From Phormidesmis priestleyi BC1401 (GTDB lineage: Bacteria; Cyanobacteriota; Cyanobacteriia; Leptolyngbyales; Leptolyngbyaceae): a stretch of 64,000 nucleotides of DNA. The position numbers were made by a program, and so were the translations under genes. The notes under the pieces are model-generated. The model was not told the DNA's origin and did no database searches. It saw only the letters and a list, made by a program, of their open reading frames with translations. The stretch lies in contig NZ_LXYR01000014.1 in NCBI RefSeq assembly GCF_001650195.1, forward strand, positions 1 through 64,000, read 5' to 3'. Positions 1 to 30,008 of this stretch are shown one piece after another; within the stretch, counting starts at the first letter, position 1, and every line of letters starts with the position of its first letter.

Positions 1-123
1 TCAAGCAAAGTTTATCGAAGAACTCTTTGGAATTAGCGCTTAACGGAACGCGAACGAGATACTTCGTTTGTCACTAAAAAGTATTTGCGACACAACCATC
101 GATCGCGCGTTGACCCGACAGCC

Positions 124-150
124 TAGAGACGTTCCATCGAAACGTCTCTA
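124..150. repeat. GAGACGTT dispersed palindrome
   Basis: Ten-base arms TAGAGACGTT and AACGTCTCTA flank a 7-nt loop. Related copies occur near 4768-4888 and 16244-16273. This is a dispersed intergenic palindrome of the type common in filamentous cyanobacteria. The function is unknown. Confidence 0.8.
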
Positions 151-234
151 CCTAATTTTGCGATGACCCACGATCGGGCGCATTCAAAAACAAAATTGGG
201 ATTGGTGAAGAGCGATCGCGGATTTTTCTAAAAA

Positions 235-321
235 GCATCCGGGTTTGTCCCTCATTTTGGGAATAAAGGAATGGTAGATGCACCCTGATTATTCACCCCG
301 GCTTCACGGCTGGGGTTTTTT
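235..321 (+). ncRNA. Candidate small RNA unit, copy 1 (copies at +132 and +264)
   Basis: The predicted transcript folds into a 5' element (GCATC at 235-239 with GATGC at 277-281, enclosing TCCC at 248-251 with GGGA at 259-262) followed by an intrinsic terminator at 296-321. The terminator has a CCCCGGC arm, a short loop, a GGCTGGGG arm and six T. The same structure recurs at 367-453 and 499-585. No clear -35/-10 pair was recognised, so the 5' end and the strand of transcription are inferred from the terminator's T-run. Confidence 0.45.
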
Positions 322-328
322 GTTTTAA
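278..328 (+). CDS. Putative 16-aa peptide MHPDYSPRLHGWGFLF, copy 1
   Basis: An ATG at 278 lies 7 nt after AAGGA (266-270), good Shine-Dalgarno spacing, and opens 16 codons ending in TAA at 326-328. The terminator hairpin lies inside the reading frame, so a translating ribosome would melt it, as in leader-peptide attenuators. Identical copies lie at 410-460 and 542-592. It may be fortuitous: with identical copies there is no substitution pattern to judge coding potential. No matching family is known to me. Confidence 0.3.
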   Translation: MHPDYSPRLHGWGFLF

Positions 329-409
329 AGGCAGAGTCTTAGCGCGATCGCGGATTTTTCTAAAAAGCATCCGGGTTTGTCCCTCATTTTGGGAATAAAG
401 GAATGGTAG

Positions 410-460
410 ATGCACCCTGATTATTCACCCCGGCTTCACGGCTGGGGTTTTTTGTTTTAA
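410..460 (+). CDS. Putative 16-aa peptide, copy 2
   Basis: Same sequence, Shine-Dalgarno-like motif and internal hairpin as the copy at 278-328, displaced by exactly 132 bp. Confidence 0.3.
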   Translation: MHPDYSPRLHGWGFLF

Positions 461-541
461 AGGCAGAGTCTTAGCGCGATCGCGGATTTTTCTAAAAAGC
501 ATCCGGGTTTGTCCCTCATTTTGGGAATAAAGGAATGGTAG

Positions 542-592
542 ATGCACCCTGATTATTCACCCCGGCTTCACGGCTGGGGTTTTTTGTTTTAA
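542..592 (+). CDS. Putative 16-aa peptide, copy 3
   Basis: Third identical copy. The repeat unit breaks off five bases after its stop codon, ten bases before the end of the convergent gene at 603. Confidence 0.3.
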   Translation: MHPDYSPRLHGWGFLF

Positions 593-602
593 AGGCACTT
601 GC

Positions 603-1415: not shown

Positions 1416-2819
1416 ATGAGTAAAGGGACGCTGTTTGATAAGGTTTGGGACGCGCACACTGTGAGCACTCTTCCATCGGGTCAGACCCAGCTTTTTATTG
1501 GGCTGCATCTGATTCACGAAGTCACCAGCCCTCAAGCGTTTGCGATGCTGAGAGAACGTGGACTTAAAGTGTCGTTTTCAGAACGGACGATCGCCACCGT
1601 TGATCACATCGTCCCAACTGAAGATCAGTCGCGTCCCTATGCTGACTCGCTGGCAGAAGAAATGATGCAAGCCTTAGAAAAGAACTGTCAAGAGAATGAC
1701 ATCACGTTCTACAACGTCGGGTCGGGCAGTCAGGGAATTGTGCACGTCATTGCCCCCGAACAGGGATTCACTCAGCCCGGAATGACGATCGCCTGTGGAG
1801 ACAGCCACACGTCAACTCATGGCGCGTTTGGCGCGATCGCGTTTGGCATCGGCACCAGTCAAGTTCGAGATGTGCTTGCGTCGCAAACGCTCTCGCTCTC
1901 GAAGCTCAAAGTTCGCAAAATCGAGGTCAACGGTGCTTTAAAGCCCGGAGTCTACGCCAAGGACGTAATTCTGCACATCATCCGCAAATTAGGCGTGAAG
2001 GGCGGCGTGGGCTACGCTTACGAGTTCGCCGGGACAACATTCCAACAGATGAATATGGAAGAGCGAATGACCGTTTGCAATATGGCGATCGAGGGCGGCG
2101 CTCGCTGTGGATATGTGAACCCCGATCGAGTCACTTATGATTATCTTCAAGGTCGTGATTTTGCTCCTAAAGGCGACGATTGGGACAAAGCGATCGCGTG
2201 GTGGAATAATATCCGCAGTGATGTAGATGCCGTTTACGACGACGCGATCGTGTTTGATGCGGCTGACATTGCTCCGACCATTACTTGGGGCATTACTCCG
2301 GGTCAGGGCATTGCCGTTGATGAGTTTGTTCCTATGCAGGATGGCATCGCAGACGATGAGAGAGCGATCGCTGAAGAAGCGTATCTCTATATGGATTTAG
2401 CTCCGGGTCAACCGATCCGAGGCACAAAAGTCGATGTCTGTTTTGTTGGAAGCTGCACCAACGGCAGAATCAGCGATCTGCGAGAAGCTGCGAAGTTTGC
2501 CAAAGGGCGACACGTTGCCAATGGCGTAAAAGCCTTCATCGTCCCCGGCTCCGAGCGGGTGAAGAAACAGGCAGAAGCGGAAGGCTTACACGAAGTTTTC
2601 TTAACCGCAGGCTTTGAATGGCGAGAAGCCGGATGCTCAATGTGTTTGGCGATGAACCCTGATAAGCTGCAAGGTCGGCAGCTCAGTGCGTCTTCGTCAA
2701 ACCGCAACTTTAAAGGTCGTCAAGGCTCATCGTCAGGGCGAACGCTGCTAATGAGTCCAGCGATGGTGGTGGCGGCGGCGGTGACAGGTCAAGTAACCGA
2801 CGTGCGTGAGTTGATCTGA
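1416..2819 (+). CDS. leuC: 3-isopropylmalate dehydratase large subunit LeuC
   Basis: This 467-aa aconitase-family enzyme isomerises 2-isopropylmalate to 3-isopropylmalate in leucine synthesis, in a complex with LeuD. The three cysteines that hold the 4Fe-4S cluster are at 347 (SCTNG), 407 and 410 (GCSMC), at the usual LeuC positions. [20 protein letters not shown] marks the aconitase active-site region. The length is normal and complete. The small subunit gene leuD is not in this window, so the two subunits are unlinked, as in several cyanobacteria. It is transcribed alone, divergently from the gene at 603-1205. A dispersed hairpin repeat follows its stop. Confidence 0.97.
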
Positions 2820-29240: not shown

Positions 29241-30008
29241 ATGAACCTTAAATCTTTTACGATGTCTGCGCTGCTGTTGACGATCGCCATTCCTGCCCAA
29301 GCCGAAAACCTTGATCACGTTCAGCAGTTGATTTCGACAAAACAATGTCAACGCTGTGACCTGAGCCGAGCCGGATTAGTGTTAGCGCAGTTAACCGGGG
29401 CAAATCTAGGTCAAGCAAATTTGGCAGGAGCCAATCTCAGTCGAGCCGTCTTAGCCGGAGCCGATTTGAGTGGCGCAAAACTAGCCGGAGCCAGCCTCAA
29501 CGGCGCAGATTTGAGCGGCGCAAAATTAGTCGGCGCAGACTTGAGCGGCGCAGACTTGAGAGGAGCCTTCTTATCAGGAGCCGATCTCACCGATGCTCGA
29601 CTAGACAACGCTGCTCTGCAAGGCGCGATCGGGCTATCTCCCACCGCAGGTAACCCCGAAGATTTTTATCGTTGGGCAGTCGAAGCCGGAAAACAGCACA
29701 ACTATGAAAAAGCGATCGAGCAGTTCAATCAGGTTTTAATTCGCAAGCCTGATCATGCGCTGGCTTATTTTGGTCGAGCGGTTTCACGACTAGAATTAGG
29801 TGACAAAGAAGGAGCCATTCAAGACACCGAATTCGCATCTACTCTGTTTTCACAACAAGGGCAAAAAGAGAACGCTGACACGGCTCGATCGTTAGCGCAA
29901 ACGATTAAGAATCCGCCCAAAGAACGCAAAGAAAAAGAGGGTGGCGGATTCGGACAAAGTATTATTAGCGTAGTGGGTGGGTTACTTCAACTGCTGCTGT
30001 TTAGGTAA
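29241..30008 (+). CDS. Secreted pentapeptide-repeat and TPR protein
   Basis: In this 255-aa protein a signal peptide (about 1-21, ending IPAQA) is followed by CQRCDLSRA, then ~16 pentapeptide repeats A(D/N)LSG (about 40-130) forming a right-handed beta-helix. Two TPR-like units follow ([40 protein letters not shown]), and a C-terminal hydrophobic stretch (about 237-253). Probably in the periplasm or thylakoid lumen. The role is unknown. Confidence 0.88.

Follow-up and report, generated by a model that had tools for sequence, protein, structure and literature searches.

In Nostoc/Anabaena sp. PCC 7120, 12 copies of the small RNA NsiR1 are reported upstream of hetF with opposite transcription; NsiR1.1 is described as antisense to the hetF 5' UTR and NsiR1.4 as a repressor of alr3234 (PMC9045159; PMC8406250). 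The DIF1 promoter consensus is given as TCCGGA, the published motif set accepted one mismatch, and DIF+ promoters are reported to be unlike the classical type (PMC6133370). An NsiR1-like RNA, RNA162, has also been described in Limnospira indica PCC 8005, a strain with neither heterocysts nor nitrogen fixation (PMC8400943). Leptolyngbya sp. BL0902 is reported to keep patX-hetR without forming heterocysts and to have a predicted DIF1 promoter before patX-hetR (PMC11298460).

The locus analyzed here shares with PCC 7120 the Rfam family, the tandem array, a predicted DIF1-type promoter per unit, and a short predicted RNA with a terminator (PMC9045159; PMC8406250), but it differs in having three copies that lie beside leuC, none at hetF, no detected nifD, and a -35 box that is one mismatch off. 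NsiR1 hosts among the described strains fix nitrogen in heterocysts, whereas nifD falls below the cut-off in this genome; as Limnospira illustrates, nitrogen fixation is not a defining feature. Expression dependent on HetR/NtcA and pairing with the hetF and alr3234 mRNAs likewise belong to NsiR1 as described. The PCC 8005 case also has an NsiR1-like RNA in a filamentous host, one that does not fix nitrogen where the present host has no detected nifD, although RNA162 is a single 57-nt gene with radiation-linked expression and no array is mentioned in the available text, in contrast to the three-copy array found here (PMC8400943). The host resembles BL0902 in keeping heterocyst regulators, but that case concerns protein regulators, and the main text is silent on "sRNA" and "small RNA" (PMC11298460). 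NsiR1, its tandem arrays, and a DIF1 promoter for each unit are already known, and the array locus itself is one more array of a known RNA.

Identity and layout of the array

The window, the whole 64,000-nucleotide stretch that was analyzed, corresponds to C14:1-64000 of a 5.55-Mb draft genome in 213 contigs. Tandem Repeats Finder, applied to the window, reported a repeat at 212-597 with a period of 132, 2.9 copies, 100% matches, and 0 indels. The units measure 132 + 132 + 122 bp with no differences across their overlap. A sequence-only reading of this DNA had described three identical 132-bp units; the perfect tandem repeat stands, but the third unit lacks the final 10 bases and stops at 122 bp. 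The features of the array and its surroundings are as follows.

1..97, no strand assigned: IS-element end at the contig start; L006 402-498, next to a DDE_Tnp_IS240 transposase ORF, matches it at 100% identity
212..343, + strand: repeat unit 1, 132 bp (tandem-repeat detection)
238..243, + strand: DIF1-like -35 box TCCGGG of unit 1, 1 mismatch to TCCGGA
262..267, + strand: putative -10 element AATAAA of unit 1, an inferred assignment (extended to units 2 and 3 through repeat identity)
272..324, + strand: NsiR1 copy 1, RF02399, 54 bits, model 1-60/60; the conserved 5' segment is the initial 17 nt
295-316, 427-448, and 559-580, + strand: terminator hairpins, one per unit, each with a 9-bp stem and T-rich tail
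344..475, + strand: repeat unit 2, 132 bp, identical to unit 1 (tandem-repeat detection)
370-375 and 502-507, + strand: DIF1-like -35 boxes TCCGGG of units 2 and 3, 1 mismatch to TCCGGA
404..456, + strand: NsiR1 copy 2, RF02399, 54 bits
476..597, + strand: repeat unit 3, the 5' 122 of the unit's 132 bp, identical (tandem-repeat detection)
536..588, + strand: NsiR1 copy 3, RF02399, 54 bits
603..1226, - strand: 207-aa ORF with no Pfam match; its orthologue adjoins the single NsiR1 of sister genome ULC007
1416..2819, + strand: leuC-like gene of the aconitase family, named by inference; gene order as in ULC007

A cmscan search of Rfam matched RF02399 (NsiR1) over its full length in each of the three units, at 54 bits against a gathering cut-off of 39. 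The earlier reading could name no known family and had used NsiR1 as a mere analogy, but the units are NsiR1 itself; a novel sRNA family was rejected because the match is over the cut-off in every unit. Judged from the DNA alone, the array shows the covariance-model score, the 3' terminator, the tandem arrangement, and the DIF1-type box of NsiR1. We are fairly confident that it comprises three tandem NsiR1 genes, a reading that includes their proposed transcription, HetR/DIF1 control, dose, recent duplication, and role in an older program. The other expectations of the earlier reading fared better: the presence of NsiR1, box, and terminator in each unit agrees with a predicted multi-copy sRNA locus in which every unit is a complete cassette, an intrinsic terminator with a 9-bp stem and T-rich tail does close all three units, and the neighbor is a leuC-like gene rather than hetF.

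Each unit is laid out as a palindrome, the DIF1-like box, an AT-rich -10 region, a putative RNA start at about 272 (unit 1), the 17-nt segment, a short linker, and the terminator with its T-rich tail. The palindrome, GCGATCGC, which we take to be the cyanobacterial HIP1 element, starts every unit (212, 344, and 476) as had been read, but the window holds 50 such sites against 2.06 expected and it is therefore not peculiar to the array, and HIP1 was rejected as a signal of the repeat unit. Elsewhere in the window, a 15/45-bp tandem repeat at 29456-29560 looks like pentapeptide-repeat coding sequence.

Promoter box, conserved segment, and fold

The DIF1-like TCCGGG lies at -34 in all three units, compared to the consensus TCCGGA. 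A generic sigma-70 scan of the array returned no promoter, a result that speaks neither for nor against one because DIF+ promoters depart from the classical type. The position of the box recurs widely: among 225 distinct NsiR1 copies, taken from extracted loci with the 15-nt core of the 17-mer as search key and one mismatch allowed, a box no more than one mismatch from TCCGGA occurred 34-36 bp 5' of the seed in 217, versus 2/225 at a control place, and TCCKGA occupied the same interval in 195 copies versus 1 at the control place. The exact 17-mer was present in 182/225 copies, a conservation that is partly built in because its core was the search key. In 31 NsiR1 copies taken by Rfam match (mostly each genome's best-scoring), the initial 17 columns were invariant.

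When 65 diverse NsiR1 copies were folded singly, a hairpin 3' of the seed appeared in 57; the 3' sequence drifts while the hairpin stays. The seed itself had a mean unpaired probability of 0.64, so it is not clearly open. RNAalifold applied to the 31 copies predicted five pairs, none of them changed on both sides, and thus no covariation. Its consensus paired the conserved segment with the 3' arm of the terminator, which we ascribe to the variable-length linker shifting the 5' arms out of register; the covariation result is still negative. The 53-nt NsiR1 RNA alone folded mildly better than shuffles (z -1.48). For the whole unit the fold was no better than that of shuffled sequences (z -0.59, with 50 of 200 shuffles equal or better), which counts against two further internal pairings claimed earlier; functional internal pairings in the unit were rejected on this basis, and the sequence 5' of 272 would by analogy be promoter rather than RNA.

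Occurrence with HetR and position at hetF

NsiR1 was found over the cut-off in 42/42 genomes and 19/19 genera of the host's order. In an evenly drawn sample of 388 genomes of the class, 211 had a match and 200 had one over the cut-off; a single match, below the cut-off, came from the control genomes. HetR (PF03574) was present in 195 of the 388. The two occurred together in 193 genomes, NsiR1 alone in 7, HetR alone in 2, and neither in 186 (phi 0.954). As NsiR1 presence follows families, these genomes do not count as independent observations and P-values say little; the pattern could stem from few ancestral events. Both HetR-only genomes carry a match under the cut-off, and nine other such matches, in genomes without HetR, are probably due to chance. 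Completeness is 62-99% in the seven NsiR1-only genomes, all of which have HetF. At E 1e-50, HetF was detected in 193 genomes of the class, all with NsiR1, and seven NsiR1 genomes gave no such match. In 108 of the 200 NsiR1 genomes nifD was absent, its presence being defined as a best profile match of E 1e-100 or better, which includes truncated genes and a few paralogue-only nif genomes. The literature searched gave no report of NsiR1-HetR co-occurrence; Ionescu 2010 and mBio 2014 may already cover homologues in non-heterocystous strains.

For 130 of the 193 genomes with HetF, the regions upstream of hetF were scanned, in sets of 30 and 100. An NsiR1 copy on the opposite strand was located there at 18/30 and 48/100 loci (66/130), a same-strand copy alone at 0/130, and one genome, G186, has copies on both strands. 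Twelve of the 18 linked loci in the smaller set belong to a genome without nifD, and eight further linked cases, identified from coordinates, occur in the host's order outside the 130. Three of the non-linked loci (G036, G067, and G206) have less than 400 bp upstream of hetF in sequence. Linkage was not found at any of the 26 loci of family f13 or at the sampled loci of f34 (4), f11 (2), f4 (2), and f22 (2). Only f32 showed multiple copies in the stretch scanned at hetF (15/18 loci), and its nifD is often cut short; such truncation is presumably what heterocystous strains would be expected to show. Genome G287, which has no nifD, carries ten tandem copies in 1.3 kb (C1:1239911-1241196), 11 kb from hetF. 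Our literature search, which did not extend to the founding Ionescu 2010 paper, turned up no report of opposite-strand NsiR1-hetF linkage in genomes lacking nifD.

NsiR1 may thus be an ancient part of the HetR/PatX/HetF program and not an invention of heterocysts, a proposition for which we consider the odds even. The ancestral arrangement would be a single hetF-opposed copy controlling HetF, and through it the level of HetR and cell division, in filaments never fixing nitrogen; that copy would have been amplified to a long array in heterocystous lineages, and different copies would have been amplified in other lineages, this one among them.

Origin and possible role of the array

The window genome has one hetR, preceded by a patX-like ORF with RGSGR that has a TCCTGA box upstream, and a hetF on contig C49. 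The best nifD profile match reached 54.6 bits, far below the cut-off of 653.55. No NsiR1 copy was found at up to three mismatches in the region upstream of hetF (C49, L102); the congener Phormidesmis priestleyi ULC007 has one there. Besides the array, copies over the cut-off occur on C15 and C1, and a weak sixth copy (28.4 bits) lies on C28 before an ORF that we take to be argJ-like. The C15 copy has a one-mismatch DIF1 box like those of the array units; none was found at the C1 copy, and none is evident at the weak C28 copy. An IS copy with a DDE_Tnp_IS240 transposase (L006 402-1225) and the C15 NsiR1 lie about 150 bp apart. Also at this locus, a small ORF opposite the C15 NsiR1 (L006 1423-1840) looks frameshifted; its ULC007 counterpart is intact at 113 aa (L074 5858-6199). 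At window positions 124-150, past the IS end and ahead of the array, lies a 10-bp inverted repeat, and a similar arm pair is found near L006 1290-1320. In L100 (G000:C51 around 30814), repeats resemble a CRISPR array.

At the orthologous locus, defined by the 207-aa ORF and leuC, ULC007 carries a single NsiR1. A search of relatives, proposed on the basis of the earlier reading, thus gave the anticipated outcome, in that copy number differs (three here, one there) and the RNA is kept. An exact 28-base pattern occurred among the named genomes on two contigs, both of ULC007 (the window's own record possibly being outside the set). The array units are 97.8% identical to the unlinked C15 copy over 89 bp that take in the promoter part, and 95.8% identical to the orthologous ULC007 copy over 72 bp; the closer match to C15 is explicable by inter-copy exchange or by C15 seeding followed by tandem duplication. 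A recent tandem duplication at the leuC locus, together with sequence exchange among unlinked copies, is the probable origin of the array.

Because the array begins only 114 bp past the IS stretch at 1-97, near a contig start in a draft of 213 contigs, its true copy number is not certain, and the short contigs together with the single copy in ULC007 might suggest that the count of three arose in assembly and that the real number is one or some other. We consider this decidedly improbable, as the contig opens in IS sequence outside the array, unit 3 ends at 122 bp and passes into unique sequence, and 13 regions in further genomes of the order hold two or more tandem copies, in some cases in genomes assembled into 3-5 contigs. 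The occurrence of copies at several loci, two of them with IS copies nearby, would also fit an NsiR1 look-alike, a mobile or REP/MITE-like repeat spread by transposition with no RNA function. Such an element would not be expected to retain the 5' segment, a promoter box at constant spacing, and a terminator in which a hairpin persists (57/65 diverse copies) despite sequence drift, nor to share loci with sister genomes and follow HetR in its occurrence, and we regard this explanation as highly improbable. A genuine NsiR1 that is now a decaying relic after heterocyst loss would account for nifD not being over the cut-off, the missing hetF-linked copy, and the one weak copy; three identical copies with intact anatomy, and a 5' segment that is near-invariant in many genomes without nifD, make decay unlikely.

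We favor an intact array of NsiR1 genes, in which each unit would be transcribed separately to give an RNA of about 50 nt. By analogy with Nostoc, nitrogen limitation would act through HetR and the DIF1 promoter to switch on NsiR1, and HetZ, like HetR, is placed in this putative control. The conserved 5' segment would block translation of target mRNAs by pairing with their 5' regions. Identical units would add dose and no new specificity, and the dose tuning through copy number that had been suggested from the sequence is plausible. Searching the host's own genome for the complement of the 17-nt segment with up to three mismatches returned 12 sites, versus 5 for a reversed-pattern control; of these, five correspond to the NsiR1 RNAs and one to the weak sixth copy, and none of the remaining six is convincing at a start codon. 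Since no nifD was found, formation of nitrogen-fixing heterocysts is an unlikely role for NsiR1 here, and the RNA may instead tune the older HetR/PatX/HetF program of filament cells. Because its occurrence tracks HetR and it frequently lies at hetF in genomes lacking nifD, NsiR1 would offer a reporter of, and a handle on, the role of HetR in heterocyst-free filaments, and the survey suggests that the heterocyst program was built on a pre-existing small-RNA circuit.
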